36,588 nucleotides of DNA from Nitrospirota bacterium (GTDB lineage Bacteria; Nitrospirota; Thermodesulfovibrionia; Thermodesulfovibrionales; UBA6898): the NCBI GenBank assembly GCA_003252075.1, contig QKDO01000117.1:1-36588 (forward strand), read 5' to 3'. Made by a program: the position numbers and the translations under genes. Shown in pieces: positions 15,573 through 35,824 of this stretch (positions are counted from its first letter, which is position 1; every line of letters begins with the position of its first letter). Under the pieces are notes generated by a model, which had not been told where the DNA came from, ran no database searches, and worked only from the letters and a program-made list of their open reading frames with translations.

Positions 15573-17020
15573 ACCTTCTTATCGCATGCTCCGAGGCCGT
15601 TCCGTATGCAAAGACAGGTGGTCTCGCTGATGTAACCGGGGCGCTGCTCAAGGAATTCCGAAAGGACAAGCTGAACGTTTCTCTGATTCTGCCCCTGTAT
15701 TCGGTCATCAGGAAGCGGTTTAGACTGGTTAGGACAGGAAAAACCGTACGGGTCCCCATGGGGAACTTCGAAATCGAAGGGGTCATTTGGGCTTCAGACC
15801 GAGGGAAACGTCCCGAAGCATACTTTGTCGAATGCGATGCCTTTTTTGGCAGGCCTGAGCTTTACGGGACCGGTGAAGGAGATTATACGGATAATGCACT
15901 CCGTTACATCTTTTTCGCGAGGGCGGTCCTTGAGACCTGCCATGCTCTTGGTATTGAGCCGGATATCATACATTGTAATGACTGGCAGACCGGATTGATC
16001 CCGCTGTACCTGAGGACGCTTTACGCTGGATATAAACAATTCAAGAAGACCGTTACACTCCTCACATTGCACAACCTCGGGTATCAGGGCATTTTTGATG
16101 CAGGCGCCATGGCATATACGGGTCTTGGCCGGGAATTTTTTGTTCCTGAGAAGCTCGAGTTCTATGGGCAGCTGAACTTTCTCAAGGCAGGTCTGCTGTA
16201 TGCGGATATTCTCAACACGGTCAGCCCCACCTATGCTGATGAGATACTTACCCCCGAGCAGGGATTCGGCCTTGACGGTATTCTTCGCTTGCGACAGGAT
16301 GACCTGTACGGAATCATTAATGGGATCGACCCTGGTGAATGGGACCCCGCTAACGATTCGCTGCTGCCGGCAGTCTACAGTGTGCAGGAACTCAAGGGTA
16401 AGCAGGAATGCAAGCGGACGTTCTGCCAGCAAGCACGCATCGCAACCTGGAAAGCGCCGCTTCTCGGCATGGTAAGCAGGCTGTCAAGTCAGAAAGGGCT
16501 TGATCTGTTCCTGAGCTCATTTGATGAACTCATAGCCCTGGGTGTTACCATTGCCGTCCTGGGAAAGGGGGATGAAGCCTATCATGCAGCTTTCACCAGT
16601 AAGGCCCGGCAGCACAAGGGAAAGGTACAGATTACGATCGGGTTTGAGGAGACCGTTGCACACCATATTTATGCCGCGGCCGATTTTTTCCTTATGCCGT
16701 CCCAGTATGAACCCTGCGGGATCGGACAGCTTATTGCCATGCGATATGGGACAGTTCCCATTGCAAGAAAGACGGGGGGGCTTGCAGATACCATCGATGA
16801 TTATGATCATCTCCGGGAAAAGGGGAGCGGTATTCTTTTCCGGGACTTCACGCCGGCAGCGCTTCAAGATGCGGTAAAACGCGCCTTGTGTGTCTCTCGG
16901 GATCCGGGGAGCATGACGAAACTTATTCAACAGTGTATGCGCAGGGAGTTTTCCTGGAGAAGTTCAGCTGCAGAGTATCTCGCACTATACGGGAACGCGG
17001 CGAAGAAGGTACTGGCATGA
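15569..17020 (+). CDS. glgA: Glycogen synthase (ADP-glucose type, GT5)
   Basis: The 483-residue GT-B enzyme extends alpha-1,4-glucan from ADP-glucose. It has the N-terminal nucleotide-sugar motif KTGGLADV with Lys15, then NDWQTGLIP, LHNLGYQG and LSSQKGLDL. The C-terminal PSQYEPCGIGQLIAMRYG ends in a second TGGLADT. It begins with TTG at 15569, overlapping the galT TGA (TTGA), and ends overlapping the kinase ATG, so it is translationally coupled on both sides. Position after galT suggests control of storage glycogen by the galT promoter. Confidence 0.94.
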   Translation: MNLLIACSEAVPYAKTGGLADVTGALLKEFRKDKLNVSLILPLYSVIRKRFRLVRTGKTVRVPMGNFEIEGVIWASDRGKRPEAYFVECDAFFGRPELYGTGEGDYTDNALRYIFFARAVLETCHALGIEPDIIHCNDWQTGLIPLYLRTLYAGYKQFKKTVTLLTLHNLGYQGIFDAGAMAYTGLGREFFVPEKLEFYGQLNFLKAGLLYADILNTVSPTYADEILTPEQGFGLDGILRLRQDDLYGIINGIDPGEWDPANDSLLPAVYSVQELKGKQECKRTFCQQARIATWKAPLLGMVSRLSSQKGLDLFLSSFDELIALGVTIAVLGKGDEAYHAAFTSKARQHKGKVQITIGFEETVAHHIYAAADFFLMPSQYEPCGIGQLIAMRYGTVPIARKTGGLADTIDDYDHLREKGSGILFRDFTPAALQDAVKRALCVSRDPGSMTKLIQQCMRREFSWRSSAAEYLALYGNAAKKVLA

Positions 17021-20000
17021 CCCTGCGCAATAAGCTTTCCCTGCTGCTGTCGGTATTCTTATTGATTATTGGGATCCTCGCCTCTGGCTCAATTCTGATT
17101 TTTGATGCACTGAACCAGCATATGATGTCACTCGCCACGGTCAGCGAAGACACAAAGTTGCTGAACGAACTGGACAGGAGCATTGGTGATTTTGTTGAGA
17201 TGGTCAGGGAATGGGGGTTCACCGGTGATATCAAATACAAAAAACTCTACGGCAATAAACTGTCCCAGGTCTACAAGAGTTTTGGAAACCTCAGCGTAAA
17301 ATCTGAGCACCGGGATGTTCTTCAGGTGATAAGCAGAGATTTCCAGAGCATACTGGATTCATCCCGGACTATTCTGAGCAGGCCAGACCTAACCGGCACG
17401 CCGGAGGGTCTTGAATATATAAAGAATATAGAGGCTGTGGCGCTCGATATCATAATGCGGATCGACGGAGCGCAGGAATCTTCCCTCACGGCGATTACCC
17501 ATGCTGTGCTGTCTGCGGAAAAGTCAAAAAAACGGATGATCGCCTATCATGCGTCGCTGATCATCTTCACATTGCTCATGTCGCTGCTTCTTTTCATCGG
17601 CATCCGCAGAACCATATCAGACCCGTTCAACGAACTCTTGAAAGCGACCGGAAAGATCAGCAGGGGGGATCTTTCATATCGGATTCATATGGACAGGGTC
17701 GATGAGTTTGGCATTGTCGCACGCAGATTTGATGATATGGTAGCTGAGCTTGAGTCTTTTACCGTCAAACTGAAGAGCAAATTGGATGAGACGGAACTGC
17801 TTCTCGATATCGCGCGGGTGGCAGGTACAACCCTTGAACTGAAGGCTGTTTTTCAATATATCGTCGAAACCGTTGCCGCAAAAATGCATTACGGCAGTTG
17901 CGCCATCTACATGCGTGGTTTAGACAATGCCACGTTTCATCTTGAGGCTTCAAATGACCCGAAGGATGCGCTGATCAATCAGAACCTCTCACGGGGCGGT
18001 CTTTCTCCCCTGCAAGTTTGCGAAAAACCGGATCAGGTCCTTGCCATGGATTTCCGAGAGGTGATGCTGGGGTTCGGGCTGACAACGGACCGGCAGGAGT
18101 CCGGGGTCGTAGTCCCGATAATTCGTGATGTCACGTGCATTGGTATGATGATCATTCGCAATCAGACAGCATATACATTCTCAGAGGATGAGAAAAAGGT
18201 CCTAAAGATCATTTCGCATACGGTTGCCGTTGTTATCCGCAATGCGGAACTCTATCAGGCAGCAAGGCAGCATGCGGAAAAGATGACGGTCCTCTTTGAC
18301 CTGAGCAGGGCCATTACGTCACTTCTTGACCTTGACACGCTGCTGCGGAAGATCACAGAGGAGATCGCGCGTCTCGTCTCTTCGCGCGGATGCATCATCA
18401 GGCTGCTTGAAGAAGATGCCCTGAAGATCAAATCTTCTTACGGTCTCAGCAGGGATGTCGAGCAGTCTCTCCAGCTGGCACGTGGTGAGGGAATCGCCGG
18501 CTGGGTGGCAGAGCACGGTGAACCGATGCTTGTTGAGGATACCGACCAAATATCTGTGAATATGAAGGTCGCGGGACTTGATATCAAGACCGCGGTGTGT
18601 GTGCCGCTCAAGGTGGGCGATGCTGTTATCGGAACCCTGAGTCTCTATGATAAGCATGATGGCAGGGGTGGGCAGATACCTTTTTCGACAGATGACCTGA
18701 GCACCCTTGAGGGTTTTGCATCGATCTCTTCCATCGCGATCGAGAAAGCGAGGATCTTTGAAGAAGAGATCAGCAGACAGCGACTGGCAGTCGAGGAAAA
18801 GAAGAGGCTCAATATCCTGTTTGACAGTGTGCAGGGGGGTATCATAACGCTCGACCGGAATTTTATCGTCACATCTGCCAACAAATATATAGAGGACTGG
18901 GTTGGAATTCCGTGCAGTGCGCTGATCGGAAAAGACAGTCAGGAGATCTTTCATGAGAAGATCGGCATCTGTCCCCATTGCGCATCTAAGCCTACCTTTG
19001 AAACCGGTGACATCAATTCCATAACCCAGTCCCGTGGCGTGAATTATGCCGAACTCACGGCATATCCGATACGGGATGAAAAGGGCGAAGTAGCTGAATG
19101 TGTTGTCTTCATCATGGACATCACCGAACGGATACTCTATCAGGAAGAAACGCTGAGCCTCTACCGTGAAGTTATCCAGACCAAGGAATACCTCGAAAGC
19201 ATTATCGATAATTCACCTGATGCTATCGTCACCAGCGATCTCGATGGAATCGTCACATCATGGAACGAGGGCGCAGAAAAGATCTTTGGATTTTCAGAAG
19301 AGGAGGTCATCGGAAAGTTTCTGCCATTCATTCCTGACACTATCCGCGAAGGTGAGAACGAGAATATTGCGCGCCTGAAGCAGGGAGAGGTGCTGAAAGA
19401 TATTGAGACGTTGCGAAGGAAAAAGGACGGGGCCATCATCGAGGTCAGCCTTACCCTGTCCCCTATCAAAGACGCGGCAGGAGAGGTGATCGGTATTTGT
19501 GGGATATCGCGTGATATATCAGAGAAGAAGCGCGTTGAAAAGGAACTGATCAGGCGCAGCCAGGAGATGTCGAGGCTTTTCTTTATCAGTTCTGCCATGA
19601 GGAGCACGCTGGAACTCAATAAGCTGCTCAGAATGGTCCTGACCGCCGTTACCATGAGCGATGGTATGGGATTCAATCGCGCAATTCTCTTTTTGCTCCA
19701 TGACGAAGGACGGACGCTGAAGGGCGTCATGGGTGTCGGGCCTGCAACGCCGGAGGAGGCGTGGAGGATATGGGACGATTTATCTCTGAAAAGCAAGACA
19801 CTGGATGATATCATGCAGGATATTGTGAACGCGCCGGTTCAGGAGAAATCATTCCTTGAACGTCTCGCGATGGGTATAGAAATATCCCTTGATGATGAAA
19901 CGATCTTGACGCGGGCGGTGAAGGATAAAGCGCCCTACAACGTCCATGACGTGAGAGCGGAACACCTTGCTGATGCGCTGCTCATCCAGCAGCTTGGCAC

Positions 20001-21210
20001 ACAGGCATATGCTGTCGTACCCCTTGTCTCGCGTGACAAGGTGATTGGACTTATCTGGGTCGACAACTACTTTAACAGAAAAGAAATTTCCGAGGCGGAT
20101 ATGCAGTTCCTGGCAAGTTTTTCGAATCAGATGGCTTCCGCTATAGAAAACGCCCGGCTTTTTGAACAGATGACCATGGCTGAGCAGCAGCTTGAGAATA
20201 TTTTCGCATCGATGTCAGATATGGTGTATTTCAATAGCAGTGATTACGTCATCAAGAGAATCAATAAGGCAGTCATGAATAGGTTGAAGCTTCCTGAAGA
20301 CCAGATTCTTGGAAGGAAATGTTATGAGCTCTTCCATGGCACGTCGGAGCCTTACGTGAAATGTCCTCACCACAAAACGGTAAGTACGAAAAAGGCATAT
20401 ATCGAGGAACTGGACGATCCTCATCTTGGCGGCACCCTTCTTACGTCCAGTTCCCCTATTTTTGATTCTTCCGGTGAGTTTATCGGATCTGTTCATGTGG
20501 TGCGGGATATTACCGAGCTGAAACAGCTGCAGAAGAAGCTTGTGATTTCGGAGAAGATGGCAGCACTTGGAGAGGTTGCTGCGAAGGTAGCGCACGAAAT
20601 CAGGAACCCTCTCGTTTCTATCGGTGGATTCGCCAAAAGGCTCGAGAAGAAGCTTGACGGTAATCTGCAGGAATATGCAGGAATCATTGTGAAGGAGGTA
20701 TCGAGACTTGAAGGTATCTTGAAGGAGATACTCGGTTTTGTCAAGGAAGCGCGTCTGGCAAAAGAACCCGTCGATCTGAATCTGCTTTTGGACGACATTA
20801 TCCGGCTCATGGAGTCAGATATTGAAGAACGCGGCGTTGTCCTGAAGAAGGAATATCGGAAGATCCCTGAGATCTTTGTTGACCCGAACAGGGTGAAGGA
20901 AGCAATTGTGAACATCATCACAAACGCTGTCCAGGCCCTTTCAGGGGCCGGAGCTATAGTTATTCGAACGTTCGCACGGGATCATGAGGTCCTGCTCGAA
21001 ATCCGTGACACAGGCAAGGGTATCCCCAAAGAAGAACTGCCGTCGATCTTCAATCCATTTTATACCACGAAATCATCGGGTACAGGGCTCGGACTTGCGA
21101 TCACGCATCGTATCGTCCAGGAACATAAAGGAAGGATTGAAGTGGAGAGTAAACTCGACGAAGGTACGGTTTTCAGAATTTATCTGCCTATAAAGGAGGG
21201 AACGTCATGA
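17017..21210 (+). CDS. Large hybrid-input sensor histidine kinase (2 TM, HAMP, 3 GAF, 3 PAS)
   Basis: The 1397-residue membrane kinase starts at ATG 17017, overlapping the glgA stop; the in-frame extension to 16888 lies inside glgA and is rejected. Approximate order: TM1 7-29, a helical periplasmic sensor, TM2 174-196, HAMP 197-250, GAF 265-415, GAF 425-585, PAS 600-715, PAS 724-845, GAF 852-1047, PAS 1057-1170, HisKA and HATPase_c. The phosphoacceptor is His1193 (KVAHEIRNP). N and G boxes are NIITNAVQAL, DTGKGIP and GTGLGLAI. Two PAS domains carry CPH motifs (CPHC and CPHH) that could bind a metal or sense redox; this is inference. The partner is probably the adjacent receiver. Confidence 0.92.
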   Translation: MTLRNKLSLLLSVFLLIIGILASGSILIFDALNQHMMSLATVSEDTKLLNELDRSIGDFVEMVREWGFTGDIKYKKLYGNKLSQVYKSFGNLSVKSEHRDVLQVISRDFQSILDSSRTILSRPDLTGTPEGLEYIKNIEAVALDIIMRIDGAQESSLTAITHAVLSAEKSKKRMIAYHASLIIFTLLMSLLLFIGIRRTISDPFNELLKATGKISRGDLSYRIHMDRVDEFGIVARRFDDMVAELESFTVKLKSKLDETELLLDIARVAGTTLELKAVFQYIVETVAAKMHYGSCAIYMRGLDNATFHLEASNDPKDALINQNLSRGGLSPLQVCEKPDQVLAMDFREVMLGFGLTTDRQESGVVVPIIRDVTCIGMMIIRNQTAYTFSEDEKKVLKIISHTVAVVIRNAELYQAARQHAEKMTVLFDLSRAITSLLDLDTLLRKITEEIARLVSSRGCIIRLLEEDALKIKSSYGLSRDVEQSLQLARGEGIAGWVAEHGEPMLVEDTDQISVNMKVAGLDIKTAVCVPLKVGDAVIGTLSLYDKHDGRGGQIPFSTDDLSTLEGFASISSIAIEKARIFEEEISRQRLAVEEKKRLNILFDSVQGGIITLDRNFIVTSANKYIEDWVGIPCSALIGKDSQEIFHEKIGICPHCASKPTFETGDINSITQSRGVNYAELTAYPIRDEKGEVAECVVFIMDITERILYQEETLSLYREVIQTKEYLESIIDNSPDAIVTSDLDGIVTSWNEGAEKIFGFSEEEVIGKFLPFIPDTIREGENENIARLKQGEVLKDIETLRRKKDGAIIEVSLTLSPIKDAAGEVIGICGISRDISEKKRVEKELIRRSQEMSRLFFISSAMRSTLELNKLLRMVLTAVTMSDGMGFNRAILFLLHDEGRTLKGVMGVGPATPEEAWRIWDDLSLKSKTLDDIMQDIVNAPVQEKSFLERLAMGIEISLDDETILTRAVKDKAPYNVHDVRAEHLADALLIQQLGTQAYAVVPLVSRDKVIGLIWVDNYFNRKEISEADMQFLASFSNQMASAIENARLFEQMTMAEQQLENIFASMSDMVYFNSSDYVIKRINKAVMNRLKLPEDQILGRKCYELFHGTSEPYVKCPHHKTVSTKKAYIEELDDPHLGGTLLTSSSPIFDSSGEFIGSVHVVRDITELKQLQKKLVISEKMAALGEVAAKVAHEIRNPLVSIGGFAKRLEKKLDGNLQEYAGIIVKEVSRLEGILKEILGFVKEARLAKEPVDLNLLLDDIIRLMESDIEERGVVLKKEYRKIPEIFVDPNRVKEAIVNIITNAVQALSGAGAIVIRTFARDHEVLLEIRDTGKGIPKEELPSIFNPFYTTKSSGTGLGLAITHRIVQEHKGRIEVESKLDEGTVFRIYLPIKEGTS

Positions 21211-24431: not shown

Positions 24432-26363
24432 GTGAGAAAAGGGATCTATCGAGAGATTACGCCACTGGATAAGGCACTGCAGGCGTGGCAGGAAGCCTTG
24501 GAGAAGAGCAACATCACCCTGATGCCGGCAGAGACGGTTAAGGTGGATGAATCTCTCGGAAGAGTCACTGCGGAACCGGTTTTTGCAACGGTTTCGTCAC
24601 CCTATTATCATTCTTCTGCCATGGACGGCTACGCTGTCCGGTTTAAGGAGACCTTTGGCGCCTCTGAGGCATCCCCCAAGACCCTCAGCATTCCTGATCA
24701 TGCGCGCCCCGTAGACACCGGAGACCCTCTCCCTGACGGATTCAGTGCCGTGATCATGATTGAAGACGTGAATCTTGTAAAATGCGGTGGGAGCGACCAT
24801 ATTGAGATTCTGGCGCCGGTGACGCCCTGGCAGCATGTACGGGTGATAGGAGAGGATATGGTAAGCTCTGAAATGATTATCCCGGAGAATCACCGGGTCA
24901 GGCCCGTCGACATTGGCGCACTCCTTTCCGGTGGACATACCGAGATACGGGTGAGAAGAAGTCCAAGGGTTGCGATCATACCTACGGGCACAGAACTTAT
25001 TGAACCCGGCGAGCCCTTGCGGAAAGGAACAATCATTGAGTTCAATTCAAGAATTCTTGCGTCTCTGGTTGCAGAATGGGGAGGCAGGCCCGTGCGGTTC
25101 AGTCCGGTGCCTGATGATCCTGAACGGTTGCAGGAAACGCTAAAAAAAGCATGTGAGCTGTATGACGTCGTCGTCATCAATGCCGGATCGTCAGCGGGCT
25201 CAGAGGATTATACTGCTGCACTGATAAACGATTTGGGTGAGGTTATCCTTCACGGCGTCGATATCAAGCCCGGCAAGCCCGTGATACTCGGTCTGGTCAT
25301 GGGAAGGCCGGTGCTGGGGATACCGGGATACCCGGTCTCTGCTTTCATTACCTTTCATCTCTTCGGGAAGAGACTGATCCATACGTTGCAGGGAATAGAG
25401 CCTCCGGAAACAGAAACAATGACTGCACGGCTTTCGCGACAGGTTGCATCATCGCTCGGACAAGAAGAATTTCTCAGGGTAAAGCTTGGCAGGGTCGGAG
25501 AAAACCTGGTTGCAACTCCGATCAGCAGAGGCGCTGGCATTCTCATGTCCCTTGTTCGTGCTGATGGCCTTGTCAGGATTCCTGCCATGTCAGAGGGATA
25601 CGGGGCCGGTGCCGAGGTTATGGTCGAGATGCTGAGGTCGAAGGATGAGATTGAGAACACCGTCGTATGTATTGGCAGCCATGATAATGCGCTGGACCTT
25701 CTTGCCAACCTGCTTAAGCGGGAACACCCCGGGTTCTCACTCTCTTCTGCGCACGTAGGGTCCATGGGTGGGCTCATGGCAATACGAAACGGAGTGGCTC
25801 ATATTGCAGGTACGCATCTGCTTGATGAGGCAACCGGGCAATATAATATACCCTTTATTATAAAAATGCTTGGCGACAGGAAACTGTTTTTGGTCAATCT
25901 GGTTTATCGCGAGCAGGGATTCATGGTTTTGAAAGGAAATCCCAAGAATATCCGAGGGTTCGGGGATCTGCGGCGACAGGACGTCTGTTTTATCAACCGG
26001 CAGGGCGGGTCCGGTACCCGGCTGCTGACTGACAAGCACCTCAGAGATCAGAACATATCCCCGCACCAGGTGAATGGTTATGGGCGGGAAGAGTATACCC
26101 ATATGGGTGTGGCATCTGCAGTGCTGACCGGCGTTGCTGATATGGGCATGGGAATTCTTGCTGCAGCCCAGGCACTCGATCTTGAATTTATTCCGGTTGC
26201 AAGAGAGCGGTATGACCTTGTTATACCGACCGCCTTTGCGGAGCTACCGCATGTTGCTGCGCTCCTCGATATTATCCGCGGCAGTACTGAATTCCGAAAC
26301 GTGGTGACCGCCCTCGGCGGTTATGACATCTCGGATATGGGCAAAACCGTTTATGCGTCATAG
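24432..26363 (+). CDS. MoeA-type molybdopterin molybdenumtransferase fused to a periplasmic-binding-like domain
   Basis: This 643-residue protein starts with GTG behind GAGGG. Residues 1-405 are MoeA, the enzyme that inserts molybdate or tungstate into adenylylated molybdopterin: SSAMDGYAVR, VDTGDPLPDGF, PTGTELIEPGEPL, NAGSSAGSEDYTAALI and GIPGYPVSAF. Residues 420-640 are a cytoplasmic LysR/PBP-like domain (DNALDLLANLL, INRQGGSGTRLL, GVADMGMGIL). No export signal is present, so the second domain is cytosolic and could sense a ligand or metal oxyanion; that role is inferred. The fusion is known from anaerobic bacteria and archaea. The last 11 bases overlap the ASKHA gene. Confidence 0.92.
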   Translation: MRKGIYREITPLDKALQAWQEALEKSNITLMPAETVKVDESLGRVTAEPVFATVSSPYYHSSAMDGYAVRFKETFGASEASPKTLSIPDHARPVDTGDPLPDGFSAVIMIEDVNLVKCGGSDHIEILAPVTPWQHVRVIGEDMVSSEMIIPENHRVRPVDIGALLSGGHTEIRVRRSPRVAIIPTGTELIEPGEPLRKGTIIEFNSRILASLVAEWGGRPVRFSPVPDDPERLQETLKKACELYDVVVINAGSSAGSEDYTAALINDLGEVILHGVDIKPGKPVILGLVMGRPVLGIPGYPVSAFITFHLFGKRLIHTLQGIEPPETETMTARLSRQVASSLGQEEFLRVKLGRVGENLVATPISRGAGILMSLVRADGLVRIPAMSEGYGAGAEVMVEMLRSKDEIENTVVCIGSHDNALDLLANLLKREHPGFSLSSAHVGSMGGLMAIRNGVAHIAGTHLLDEATGQYNIPFIIKMLGDRKLFLVNLVYREQGFMVLKGNPKNIRGFGDLRRQDVCFINRQGGSGTRLLTDKHLRDQNISPHQVNGYGREEYTHMGVASAVLTGVADMGMGILAAAQALDLEFIPVARERYDLVIPTAFAELPHVAALLDIIRGSTEFRNVVTALGGYDISDMGKTVYAS

Positions 26364-27852
26364 ACCCCTTGCCTTTGGTTTTACCGTGGTTCTTCCCAAA
26401 CCTACACAACAGGACAGAAGTGCTGACGTTGACCGCCTCACTGCCGAACTTGAGCAACGCGGTTTTTATCCGGTACTTGTGCCTCTTGATATCATGCAGA
26501 GGCTGCCCTATGAAATGAGAAGGAATGATTTTGCGCTTGATCTGGTTGTAGGCTGCACAGATTTGGGCTATGTTGTGCTTGACATCAATAACTCGGATAC
26601 GGTGTATGGAATAGCCCTGGATATTGGTACCACGACGATCGAATGCGCCCTTTATGATCTCAATGCACAGAAAAAGATCGCAGTGCTTGATACGGCTAAC
26701 CCACAGGCAGGGTATGGTGAAGATGTTCTGGCGCGTGCTCAGATGGCGATGAGGGGGAGGGGCGAGGATCTTGTTCAGGTGCTCCGCGAAGCGCTTCATC
26801 GCCTGATTCGTGACCTGTGCGACAAGAATCGTGTAGACAGTGAGAACGTTTATGCTCTGACAGTAGCCGGCAACACGTTCATGACGCATTTTTTTTTAGG
26901 GCTTGACGTAGTCAATATACCGATTGCACCAAATACACCAGCAGTCGGACATGCAGTCTTTTGCTCAGCACGGGATGTCGACATCCCCGTGCACCCCAAG
27001 GCTCTTGTCTATGTGTTTCCGAACGCCGGCAGTTATGTCGGTGGCGATATTATCAGCGGTATGATCGCCATGGGGATGCTTGAGCAGACGTCTCCCGTTC
27101 TTTTTCTGGATGTAGGAACGAATGTCGAGATTACACTCGGATGCAAAGAATGGATCATGGTAGGTGCCGGCGCGGCGGGGCCGGCTCTCGAGGGCGGTAT
27201 CTCCGGCATCGGAAGAAGAGCGGAACCCGGAACGATAAGCCATGTCGCTATCGACAGACGGACAGGAGAGCCCCACCTGACCGTAATATCCGGAGGGGAT
27301 CCACATGGGATTTGCGGATCGGGTTTGATAGATCTTGTTTCGGAGCTTTATACCAAGGGTATCATTGATCGTGCCGGGAAGTTCCATAGGGGAAAAGAAG
27401 GGGTTGTGCTCAAGGACGGGGTTGCATCCTATCGGGTTTTCCGATCTTCCGGCAAAGAGTTGCTTTTCACGGAGCATGAGCTTAAGAATTTTTTGCGGTC
27501 TAAGGCAGCAATGTTTGCCTTCCTGTTTGTTTTCCTTAAGTCTGTCGGAATGGGTATCGGTGATATAGACAAAATCTACCTCTCCGGCGCACTTGGGTGT
27601 GGTATCAACCGCGAAAGCGCGGTAAATATCGGAATGCTCCCTGACATAAAACAGGAAAAGATGGTGCCAATCGGCAATTCATCGCTGCGAGGAGCCGCCA
27701 TGCTTCTGATGAACAGTTCCCTTCTCGATGACGTGAGACACATTCGCTCACTTATAACATACCGTCAGATGAGCGAAGACCCTGATCTGCTGAATGTCCT
27801 TCAGGGGGCCCTTTTTATTCCGCATACCGACCCTGAACTATTGAAAGGCTGA
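26353..27852 (+). CDS. RACo-like ASKHA-domain protein (DUF4445 group) lacking the N-terminal ferredoxin domain
   Basis: The start ATG 26353 (MRHRPLAFGFTVV) overlaps the moeA stop. The 499-residue protein has the RACo linker/middle region (residues 1-85) and an ASKHA ATPase core. The core has phosphate-1 motif DIGTTT (90-95), the second FLDVGTN, GAGAAGPALEGG, GGDPHGICGSGLIDLV and YLSGALGCG. RACo proteins reactivate corrinoid iron-sulfur proteins by ATP-driven reduction, using an N-terminal 2Fe-2S domain. That domain is absent here and no cysteine cluster replaces it. No corrinoid protein or methyltransferase is encoded nearby, so the client is unknown. Confidence 0.85.
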   Translation: MRHRPLAFGFTVVLPKPTQQDRSADVDRLTAELEQRGFYPVLVPLDIMQRLPYEMRRNDFALDLVVGCTDLGYVVLDINNSDTVYGIALDIGTTTIECALYDLNAQKKIAVLDTANPQAGYGEDVLARAQMAMRGRGEDLVQVLREALHRLIRDLCDKNRVDSENVYALTVAGNTFMTHFFLGLDVVNIPIAPNTPAVGHAVFCSARDVDIPVHPKALVYVFPNAGSYVGGDIISGMIAMGMLEQTSPVLFLDVGTNVEITLGCKEWIMVGAGAAGPALEGGISGIGRRAEPGTISHVAIDRRTGEPHLTVISGGDPHGICGSGLIDLVSELYTKGIIDRAGKFHRGKEGVVLKDGVASYRVFRSSGKELLFTEHELKNFLRSKAAMFAFLFVFLKSVGMGIGDIDKIYLSGALGCGINRESAVNIGMLPDIKQEKMVPIGNSSLRGAAMLLMNSSLLDDVRHIRSLITYRQMSEDPDLLNVLQGALFIPHTDPELLKG

Positions 27853-32011: not shown

Positions 32012-32759
32012 AACGGAGGATGTTCTCCATGCTCCGAATCACATTTTCAGGTGAATGTGCCTCTATGGTATGGATGCAGTCCTTGTTCTTCAGCAGATAA
32101 AAGAACTTTCCAAAGTCGAAGGTCCCTTCACCTACGGGCAGGTGCTGGTCTGAAGTCTTGTCATTGTCATGCAGATGAAGTTCCAGAATATAAGGATTAA
32201 GCGCTTCCATCCAGTCCTCAAGACGAACCTTTGAGAAAAGGTTGCAATGCCCGGTGTCAAAGCAGATGCCGAAATTCACAGAGTTCATTCCCTCCATGAG
32301 CATTCTCAGGTTCGATGGTTCGTCTTCAAAAATATTCTCGATTGCAATTTTGACGCCCATGGACGTTGCGCGCTCATTTACCGGCTGCCAGGTGAGAAGG
32401 CTTTTTTCAAGCCACCAATCCATCTTCAGTGCATATCGCCACTTCTCATACCCTGAATGGAAGACAATTGCCTTCGGTTCGAGAGTTGCGGCGATATCAA
32501 GCACGTGATTGAGTCTCTTGAGCGTAGCTTTCCTGACGAGAGAATCCACTGCTCCGGGAGAAAGATCCATGAATGGCGCATGGAAGGAGAGGGAAGGCTT
32601 GTGGTTGAGCTCCTTCTGCACCTTTTTCAGGTCGGCAGGCGTAATCATATCGAGGGCATCCCCAGCAAAGTAAATCTCAAGGTTAAGGCATCTGTCCCTG
32701 ATGAGCTCAAGATGCTCGGAAAGCCTGCTGAAGGGTATATGGACGTGGGGAGCTATCAC
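31986..32759 (-). CDS. Sugar phosphate isomerase/epimerase-like TIM-barrel protein
   Basis: The 257-residue xylose isomerase-like (AP endonuclease 2 fold) protein starts with GTG at 32759, overlapping the FmdB stop (GTGA). Likely metal ligands lie at the strand ends [27 protein letters not shown] and TIEAHSP, with an earlier [12 protein letters not shown] and VFHSGYEKW. The substrate cannot be assigned; the family includes sugar epimerases and endonuclease IV. It is probably co-transcribed with the FmdB gene. Confidence 0.85.
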
Positions 32760-33055
32760 TTTTCTTTATCTGAAGCAGTTTTCTTTTCGGGTTTCGGCTC
32801 TTTTTGGGGTTCCTTCTTAGCTGGGGTTTCTGACTTTTCCTTCTTGTCCGCACCTTCCTTTGCTTCCTTCTTGCCCTTTTGTGCATAATCCGTCACATAC
32901 CAGCCAGAGCCTTTCAGCACAAAGGATGTGTTCGAAATCATCTTCTTCATGGTCCCACCGCAACTCGGGCAGATGGAGAAGGGTTTATCCGTGATCTTCT
33001 GCATAATCTCATGGTGCCGATTGCATTTTTTACACGTGTACTCATATATTGGCAT
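32756..33055 (-). CDS. FmdB-family zinc-ribbon protein with charged tail
   Basis: The 99-residue protein starts [11 protein letters not shown] and has the two zinc knuckles C8/C11 and C29/C32. The conserved FmdB stretch [13 protein letters not shown] (45-57) follows, then a Lys/Glu/Pro-rich tail (60-99) likely to be disordered. The function of the family is unknown. GGAGG lies ten bases before the ATG. It is the longer of two FmdB proteins in the window; the other, at 8327, lacks the GSGWYVTDY segment. Confidence 0.9.
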
Positions 33056-33333: not shown

Positions 33334-33957
33334 ATGCTGAAGGTCGGGTTGACAGGAAACTATGGCATGGGGAAGAGCTCTGTGGCCAAAATGTTCAGAG
33401 ATCTTGGCGCCGCCACAATCAATAGTGATGACATCGTTGCCTCACTGCTGAATGAAGAGTCGGTCAAGGGAAAGATTACGGGACTCTTGGGGGTCGAAGC
33501 CGTTGATGCTGACGGCAGTCTTGACAAGAAGTTTATAGCCAATAAAATATTTAATAACAAAGCCTTGAGAGTGCAAATTGAAGCTATACTTCACCCTTTG
33601 GTCTTTATAAAACTGGATACTCTGATAGCCAGGCTAAGGGGCGGAAAGCGCATTATTATTGTTGAAGTGCCGCTTCTCTTCGAGGGAGAATATCAAGATC
33701 ATTTCAACAGAACGATAACGGTATTTGCAGACAGAAAAACTGTTTTCTCCCGGCTGAGGAAGTCAGGAGTACTGCGAAAAGACGCCCTACTGCGGCTGCA
33801 GAATCAGATGGACATCCGACGCAAGAAGCAGCTCGCAGATTACTGCATCAATAATAGCGGTACCAGAAGACAGACCGAGGCACAGGTCAGGAAGATCTCA
33901 CAGCTGCTCATTGCTGAAAACAGGAGACAACTCAGTAGGGGTCAACATCGATCCTGA
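33334..33957 (+). CDS. coaE: Dephospho-CoA kinase
   Basis: The 207-residue P-loop kinase phosphorylates dephospho-CoA at the 3'-OH, the last step of CoA synthesis. Walker A is GNYGMGKSS (8-16), followed by GAATINSDDIV (25-35), HPLV (86-89) and EVPLLFEG (109-116). The C-terminal tail is basic. The last 26 bases overlap the end of the convergent priA-like gene. Confidence 0.93.
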   Translation: MLKVGLTGNYGMGKSSVAKMFRDLGAATINSDDIVASLLNEESVKGKITGLLGVEAVDADGSLDKKFIANKIFNNKALRVQIEAILHPLVFIKLDTLIARLRGGKRIIIVEVPLLFEGEYQDHFNRTITVFADRKTVFSRLRKSGVLRKDALLRLQNQMDIRRKKQLADYCINNSGTRRQTEAQVRKISQLLIAENRRQLSRGQHRS

Positions 33958-35824
33958 TATCACTCGGCGTCTTACCGATCTTAGCCAGCAAAGAACGTAC
34001 AGCCCTATGCAGCATCTTTCTCTCGGGGTGTCTGATAAGTATTGAGTATTCTATTTTGCCCTTCCTGGTTTTTCTTTCTGTCGGTCCGAGAATTTCAATT
34101 TCCTTTGAGGAAAGGCCGATCAGCCTGACTGCTCTTTCTGGAAGGTCTCCATTATGCGAGACAACAATGTCCATCATCTTTGAGTACGGGGGGAAGCGAA
34201 GGTCCCTTCGCAGGGACAGTTCTTCAGCTGCAAAGGCGGCAAAATCATCGTCCTTTATGTGCCGATAGAGCGGTTCATGTGACAACCGGGTCTGGAGCAG
34301 CAATTCACCGGAGGGATTTACGAGGTCCCGGACAGCGACAATTTCCTGGAAGGCCTTTTCCCGTGCCCTGAAGTCAGGGATGTTCATGCTGATGTCAGGA
34401 TTGAGCATGGCAGCCATGCCGAATTGGGCAGCGCCTCTCAGCACATTGGTCAACATCTTGGTCCCGACCAAAATGCGCGTTTCGTCCTGGGATGCATGTG
34501 CAAGCATATCCCTCGCTGATGTTTTGCGCGCAGCCTTATCACTGTCGAAGCGGACAGTCCCAACACCGAAGAGTTCGCGCATAACTTCTTCGATCTTCTG
34601 TGTGCCTGCCCCCAGGAGTTCAAGCCGGGAGCTTTTGCATTTGCTACATGTTTCGGGAATGGCAACATATCTGCCGCAGTAATGACATCGCAGAAGATTT
34701 TTATCTTTGTGCAGTACAAGCGGTATGCCGCACTCAGTACACCTTTCGGCAGCTCCGCACTCTGCACAATGAAGCATGGTGGAATGTCCTCTCCTGTTCA
34801 ACAAAAAAAGTACCTTATCGTTCCTATGAAGAGCTCCTTTGGCAGCAGCTATGACCGACGATGAAAGGTACGGACGGACCTTATGGGTAAAACGCATATC
34901 GACGGTCCGTACTTTCGGTCTCTTTATTCCTGAGCGCATATCCAGCAGGCGATATTTTCCGCTGAGGGCATTCGCCCATGATTCCATGGATGGCGCAGAG
35001 GAGGTCATCAGAACGGGGATTTGTTCCAGGAAGCCACGCATGATCGCACAGTCGCGTATATTGAGACGTATCCCGTCCTCCAGTTTATACGAACCCGCCT
35101 GCTCGTGTATGATAATGATCAGTTTGAATTTCAGGATTGGAGCGAAGAGGGCAGTACGGGTACCAATCACAATATCATGTCTGCCCGAGACGATGCCCTT
35201 TATTGCTTCTGAGCGCTTACCCGCTGCCATATCGCTGTGCAATATGCAGGCCCTGTCACCGAGGTCCCTCATGGCGCTGAAGAATCGGGTTGCGCCGATG
35301 ATCTCGGGAAAAAGGACTAATGTCTTGACGGTTCTGCGAAGTAATGATGCAGCAAGAGAAAATTCATGCTGCGAAGAGGCTGCATAAAGAAGCGTGGACT
35401 GATATGCATCGCTATCCATAATGCCGGAACAACGTGCAACGTCCTGCTCAGGAATGGATAAAAGCTCATAAGGGGCCAAGGCATGCATAGCAGGGCCTTT
35501 TGGTTTTACTTCCACGAGCATCTCTTGGGGAACTGTCTGCTTAAGAATGAGACCTGCCGGGGCGATATAATAATCTGACATCCACATCAGCAGTTTCATC
35601 ATGGCGGTGCTGAACAGAGGTCTGTTGCCATGTATCTCAGTAATCTCTTTGATGTTTCCGGGAGGCGGGGTTGGGGACTTTCGGCAGAGTATGCCCCTGG
35701 CGATGACATTCCTGAGCGGCGCCGATACGAGCATACCCGGCGTTGCAATCTCTTTCAGAGCCGCCGGGCATCGATAGGTAAGAGGTCCGACGGCGAGGGG
35801 AAAGAGAATATCAACAAATGGCAT
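33932..35824 (-). CDS. PriA-like primosomal protein without functional helicase motifs
   Basis: The intact 630-residue frame has PriA architecture. The N-terminal 3'-end DNA-binding domain covers 1-105 (FVDILFPLAVGPLTYRCP), a helicase-like core 130-510 and the C-terminal domain follows. The zinc-binding insert is complete: C353, C356, C362, C365, C380, C383, C393, C396. The ATPase motifs are lost. Walker A is replaced by YAASSQHEFS (147-156), DEEH by IHEQ (239-242) and the arginine-finger motif GRAGR by AVRDLVNPSG (497-506). Structural remnants (LFPEI, GTRTALFAP, IPDFRAREKAFQ) remain. Helicase-dead PriA is known in Actinobacteria. It probably binds stalled forks and recruits partners without unwinding DNA. 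Confidence 0.88.
   Translation of the reverse strand: MPFVDILFPLAVGPLTYRCPAALKEIATPGMLVSAPLRNVIARGILCRKSPTPPPGNIKEITEIHGNRPLFSTAMMKLLMWMSDYYIAPAGLILKQTVPQEMLVEVKPKGPAMHALAPYELLSIPEQDVARCSGIMDSDAYQSTLLYAASSQHEFSLAASLLRRTVKTLVLFPEIIGATRFFSAMRDLGDRACILHSDMAAGKRSEAIKGIVSGRHDIVIGTRTALFAPILKFKLIIIIHEQAGSYKLEDGIRLNIRDCAIMRGFLEQIPVLMTSSAPSMESWANALSGKYRLLDMRSGIKRPKVRTVDMRFTHKVRPYLSSSVIAAAKGALHRNDKVLFLLNRRGHSTMLHCAECGAAERCTECGIPLVLHKDKNLLRCHYCGRYVAIPETCSKCKSSRLELLGAGTQKIEEVMRELFGVGTVRFDSDKAARKTSARDMLAHASQDETRILVGTKMLTNVLRGAAQFGMAAMLNPDISMNIPDFRAREKAFQEIVAVRDLVNPSGELLLQTRLSHEPLYRHIKDDDFAAFAAEELSLRRDLRFPPYSKMMDIVVSHNGDLPERAVRLIGLSSKEIEILGPTERKTRKGKIEYSILIRHPERKMLHRAVRSLLAKIGKTPSDIRIDVDPY

Follow-up and report, generated by a model that had tools for sequence, protein, structure and literature searches.

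Why helicase activity is near-universal in bacterial PriA, though E. coli survives without it, is a question that a gene from a Nitrospirota genome brings to the fore. The gene lies in contig QKDO01000117.1 (assembly GCA_003252075.1), in a stretch of 36,588 nucleotides that was analyzed as a whole and is called the window here. It encodes a PriA homologue whose helicase motifs are replaced, and the locus raises the question of what such a protein does and how far the loss extends.

The priA frame runs uninterrupted from its first to its last codon (Table 1), and its product scored 327.7 bits on the PriA equivalog model TIGR00595, above the curated cut-off of 230.35. The Pfam models PF17764 (3'BD), PF18319 (Cys-rich) and PF18074 (PriA_C) all exceeded their cut-offs, and no DEAD or helicase domain was detected in the Pfam scan of this protein. 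The intact frame, the PriA-type N-terminus and the eight zinc cysteines (residues 353, 356, 362, 365, 380, 383, 393, and 396) of the original prediction were confirmed, and the eight cysteines were invariant in 149 of 149 aligned Nitrospirota PriA proteins. Active PriA carries Walker A (GxxGxGKT), the DEEH box and QxxGRxGR, and all three were replaced in the window protein, letter for letter as first described when the translation was read again, so that this PriA orthologue has lost its catalytic motif residues. The wording that all motifs were erased went too far, because it held for motifs I, II, and VI, but GTR (221-223), E241 (the third DEEH residue), the YK...RD that follows the DEEH site, P278 of motif III, and the GT of motif V (454-455) were kept. 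E241 and P278 were each present in all 68 orthologues of the order described below.

Table 1. Coordinates of priA and of its domains and replaced motifs in the window.
Feature	Position	Strand	Basis
priA, helicase-dead PriA homologue; complete 630-aa frame, ATG to stop	33932..35824	minus	TIGR00595 and Pfam
3'-DNA-binding domain, aa 1-100, with invariant W81/Y85	35525..35824	minus	PF17764
Lost Walker A site, aa 147-156 YAASSQHEFS, E154 in the catalytic Lys column	35357..35386	minus	alignment
Lost DEEH box site, aa 239-242 IHEQ, only E241 kept	35099..35110	minus	alignment
Cys-rich zinc-binding insert, aa 353-396, eight Cys	34637..34768	minus	PF18319 and alignment
Lost motif VI / arginine finger site, aa 498-506 VRDLVNPSG	34307..34333	minus	alignment
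PriA C-terminal domain, aa 546-630, R602 in the SSB-tail-binding Arg column	33935..34189	minus	PF18074

The priA gene is flanked by a convergent coaE on one side and a ppnP-like gene on the other, and the 3' ends of coaE (plus strand) and priA (minus strand) share 26 bases (window positions 33932-33957). The order coaE/priA/ppnP was conserved within the genus, and coaE lay beside priA in several relatives. The third-position GC content of priA (0.547) was similar to that of the neighbouring genes, so nothing marks priA as a recent acquisition. The closest named records were Nitrospiraceae bacterium UBA6898 (95% identity) and UBA6905 (72%), and a peptide-pattern scan of the genome collection matched just the two nearest relatives. 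Both named records are metagenome-assembled genomes (MAGs) and the genome studied here is in 146 contigs, which would suit an assembly, binning, or frameshift artefact; this explanation deserves practically no credence and was refuted by the recurrence of the same replaced motifs in 68 independent genomes from 13 families, some of them single-contig, and the conserved gene order with coaE and ppnP also argues against it.

Other genes of the window were recorded as well. A small protein of 99 aa that carries a zinc ribbon (PF09723) at its N-terminus is encoded at 32756-33055 (minus strand); its gene adjoins coaE and a gene with a CbiR-like sugar-isomerase fold, an arrangement conserved in the family. 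A sensor histidine kinase of 1440 aa with several GAF and PAS domains and one HAMP domain is encoded at 16888-21210 (plus strand). The gene at 26323-27852 (plus strand) encodes a RACo-type (AcsV-like) reductive activator of corrinoid proteins; its presence suggests that methyl transfer in this organism is corrinoid-dependent, perhaps as part of a Wood-Ljungdahl pathway.

The alignment used to analyze the extent of the motor loss comprised 68 orthologues of the order (13 families), which by NCBI and GTDB usage is probably Thermodesulfovibrionales, 28 sequences from the remaining orders of its class, and 37 from further canonical families in the phylum. A PriA orthologue was present in 60 of the 61 genomes of the same genus, family, and order. 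The pattern GxxxxGK[ST] was absent from all 68 order members. In the Walker lysine column 56 of them had Glu, 4 had Gln, and 1 had Lys, which was absent from the other 67, and the first DEEH residue was a hydrophobic or small residue rather than Asp in 67 of 68. All eight cysteines were present in 68 of 68. Scores on the PriA model were about 150-370 bits within the order, most members exceeding the TIGR00595 cut-off, in comparison with mostly 500-670 bits in other orders of the class. Both the Walker Lys and the DEEH Asp were kept in 28 of 28 proteins from those other orders, the Walker Lys in 65 of 65 relatives with a live PriA in the phylum, and Lys, DEEH Asp, and motif VI together almost without exception in these 28 and 37 proteins. 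The border of the loss is therefore the border of the order, dead in all 68 members and live in the sister orders, and the distribution of GxxxxGKT, Lys, and DEEH Asp does not agree with recent decay. The comparison with relatives that had been called for revealed no close relative with intact motifs, and the pseudohelicase state would most likely have arisen in the ancestor of the order. The original prediction is corrected in that the loss is not special to this organism: it is common to every sampled order member, and a second one is found elsewhere in the phylum. One PriA of a sister order (L098, from genome G064 of family f14) has IRPGIRKRE in place of GVTGSGKTE and keeps Lys and DEEQ; this sequence is fragmentary or divergent, and may be a fragment, an artefact of assembly, or an additional, more recent loss.

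The Glu in the Walker lysine column, residue 154 of the window protein (35363-35365, minus strand), is more conserved than a released site would be. E154 may contribute structurally to the former nucleotide pocket, and the conservation of a Glu in this P-loop column hints that the site has been put to some new use and was not simply lost. Alternatively, ATP might still be hydrolyzed at a displaced or non-canonical nucleotide site; an ATPase of this sort would also make sense of the strong conservation of E154 and of the presence of E241 in 68 of 68 members. We regard such an enzyme as very unlikely, because the P-loop glycines, the Lys, the first DEEH Asp, and the motif VI arginines are gone and the first DEEH position is hydrophobic or small in nearly every member.

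A search with the PriA model across the entire assembly (2.86 Mb, 96% complete) gave a single full match and four weak matches. The four weak TIGR00595 matches were rejected as a second PriA, as they were Mfd, UvrB, and RecG, and no second PriA was detected across the 61 genomes scanned in the order and class. The search for a second canonical priA, proposed as a check in the original prediction, thus ended with a single copy. Selection was estimated as dN/dS by NG86. The values for the window gene were 0.22, 0.17, and 0.14 against the genus neighbours G005, G007, and G001, respectively, and the median in the order was 0.163 (26 pairs). Live PriA gave 0.096 in the class and 0.222 in other families, and f29/f32, the second dead group, gave 0.182; these are simple per-pair counts from pairs that share branches and serve as rough comparisons. 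The ratio of dN in helicase lobe 1 to dN of the whole gene was 0.56-0.67 in live PriA and 0.90 in the order. The extra constraint on lobe 1 has been lost and the gene as a whole is still constrained, the pattern expected if catalysis alone was released.

The sole PriA is therefore retained under purifying selection, with a dN/dS of about 0.16 that lies inside the range of live PriA and gives no sign of relaxation. The proposal of selection for a non-helicase role is supported by the dN/dS of 0.14-0.22, by the cysteines, and by the lack of a second PriA. Motif loss and rapid change on the branch leading to the order could be taken as marks of a decaying paralogue or pseudogene of canonical PriA, but this highly improbable reading is refuted by the single copy in 61 genomes, by the level of dN/dS, and by an open priA frame in every sampled family.

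The fold was predicted with AlphaFold from 55 sequences (pLDDT 88.4, pTM 0.89). The model has the PriA fold, with a TM score of 0.80 and a Z score of 31.8 over 606 residues in comparison with fork-bound E. coli PriA (8fak), and its best matches among solved structures were all PriA (8fak, 6dcr, 4nl4, 6dgd, and 4nl8; Z 28-32 over 546-606 residues). The pocket for the SSB tail in Klebsiella PriA is formed by W82, Y86, K370, and R697. The role of R697 in this pocket is confirmed by published work (PMC4129139). The matching residues in the order were W81 in 67 of 68 members, Y85 in 65, and K290 in 65, and the R602 column held R or K in 56 of 68. Judged from these residues, the SSB-tail pocket is retained in the order. 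Two further differences were considered and rejected as part of the loss. The Asp of the E. coli 3'-end pocket (D17) is replaced by Thr, which is uninformative about 3'-end recognition because most PriA of the class with a live motor also carry Thr there; and the short winged-helix region is equally short in live relatives of the class.

A second group of PriA proteins lacking Walker A, DEEH, and motif VI was found in families f29 and f32 (L129-L144, e.g., L133:126-2360), with lengths of about 690-770 aa. The genomes of these families, perhaps Nitrospira-like, are 2-4.5 Mb in size. Like the PriA of the order, these proteins have lost all three motifs and have kept the eight cysteines (16 of 16), but the replacement letters differ (e.g., LHAP-W..R and WVEGEED), the P-loop has no 5-residue deletion but is one residue shorter, the N-terminal part is long, and the SSB pocket is unconserved (W in 6 and Y in 7 of 16), unlike that of the order. 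A quick PriA tree joined the two dead groups (84%, long branches), as long branches would, and a careful PriA tree placed them far apart; with PriA alone, one clade of both groups had p 0.087 in the AU test. The RpoB tree placed the order among live orders of its class (support 100 and 97) and grouped f29/f32 with two live families, f33 and f34 (95), and a clade of both dead groups, as a single origin would require, was rejected on it (p 0.00013). The simplest reading of these placements would be two separate motor losses in the phylum, although a dead priA may have been transferred from one group to the other.

The genes for replication restart were also surveyed. The genome contains one DnaB and one DciA, and RecG, Mfd, and UvrB are also present. 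No DnaC/DnaI-type loader rose above background in the genome, an IstB-type match over cut-off being rejected because it is a DnaA; PriC gave zero matches over cut-off in 41 genomes; and no replacement helicase for restart was found. DciA was just as common in relatives with live PriA. Primosomes are still assembled by E. coli PriA ATPase mutants, and the PriA of D. radiodurans neither hydrolyzes ATP nor unwinds DNA and binds forks and DnaB (PMC4504706). DciA and PriA have been proposed to act together (PMC9825169). With DnaB and DciA as the only restart partners found, the E. coli mutants, and the D. radiodurans precedent, the best explanation, which we hold to be probable, is that the sole PriA is a pseudohelicase that would serve as an ATP-independent scaffold for fork recognition and DnaB reloading, probably with DciA. 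Abandoned forks are predicted to be bound through the 3'-end-binding domain, the DNA-contacting core, and the zinc insert, and the pocket of PriA would hold the SSB tail. PriA would then be an ATP-independent platform on which the replicative helicase DnaB is reloaded, probably jointly with the loader DciA. We infer from the sequence that the protein neither hydrolyzes ATP nor unwinds DNA; fork binding and DnaB reloading are suggested by homology and gene content, and partnership with DciA by the presence of its gene.

Restart could also have moved to another helicase (RecG, or DnaB and DciA alone), with PriA recruited to an unrelated DNA- or SSB-binding job. Such a move would agree with the loss of every catalytic residue, with the presence of RecG, Mfd, UvrB, DnaB, and DciA, and with the search for known restart partners, which found none beyond DnaB and DciA. 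We consider it unlikely, because exactly the features for restart have been kept (the zinc insert, the 3'BD, the SSB pocket, and the whole fold) and because E. coli PriA without ATPase loads primosomes (PMC4504706). Dependence of restart on another helicase, as suggested earlier, is possible in principle, but the E. coli mutants make it unnecessary and no candidate helicase was found.

Beyond the scaffold role, a broader reading is that the motor was lost twice independently in the phylum and that the change from Lys to Glu fixed the nucleotide site as a structural switch, locking PriA in one conformation, so that recognition would be ATP-independent and restart left to DnaB and DciA. This reading is tentative, and we would sooner doubt it than rely on it. 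If the double loss and the Glu switch are real, Nitrospirota would be a natural experiment on the purpose of PriA helicase activity. A dead order beside live sister orders, together with a second loss, offers a clean comparison of what else changed along with the loss and of which PriA functions, among fork binding, SSB contact, and DnaB loading, have to be kept. The automatic label "replication restart helicase PriA" would be wrong on activity for the order.

No report of a helicase-dead PriA in Nitrospirota was found in the open-access literature searched, and the titles and abstracts retrieved for PriA with Thermodesulfovibrio were unrelated. The window protein shares with canonical PriA (E. 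coli/Klebsiella; 8fak, 4nl4, 6dgd) the fold over 606 residues, the zinc insert, the 3'BD, the C-terminal domain, and the SSB-pocket residues, but Walker A, the catalytic residues of DEEH, and the arginines of motif VI are missing from it, and the distance from the 3'BD to helicase lobe 1 has a median of 47 residues in comparison with 119 in canonical PriA. The linker by which E. coli PriA holds its winged-helix domain is short here, as it is in live relatives of the class.

Actinobacterial PriA (NCBIfam PRK14873) is likewise divergent, presumably non-helicase, and kept; it has been described as "smaller and very divergent" (PMC1193525), and mycobacterial PriA is listed as essential (PMC5694481). 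The window protein scored 374 bits on general PriA models and at most 137.6 on the PRK14873 models, whose cut-offs are at least 812, and is therefore no actinobacterial copy acquired by transfer. The original prediction had placed the established helicase-dead precedent in Actinobacteria, for which just the wording of PMC1193525 was found; in the literature consulted, the biochemically demonstrated precedent is in Deinococcus-Thermus (PMC4504706).

The PriA of D. radiodurans (PMC4504706) has lost its motor and has been retained with degenerate motifs I and II, as the window protein appears to have been, and in neither case are PriB, PriC, or DnaT partners expected. Deinococcus-Thermus is a different phylum, so the Nitrospirota loss is a separate event. 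The Walker Lys of GKT is changed to Arg in Deinococcus-Thermus, whereas in the Nitrospirota order the whole P-loop is rewritten (an HAPSxxxEYS-like consensus with Lys changed to Glu) and the loss extends to DEEH and motif VI. The helicase-dead PriA is thus of a kind known from Deinococcus-Thermus, and what is new is the double loss at phylum level and the conserved change of Lys to Glu.
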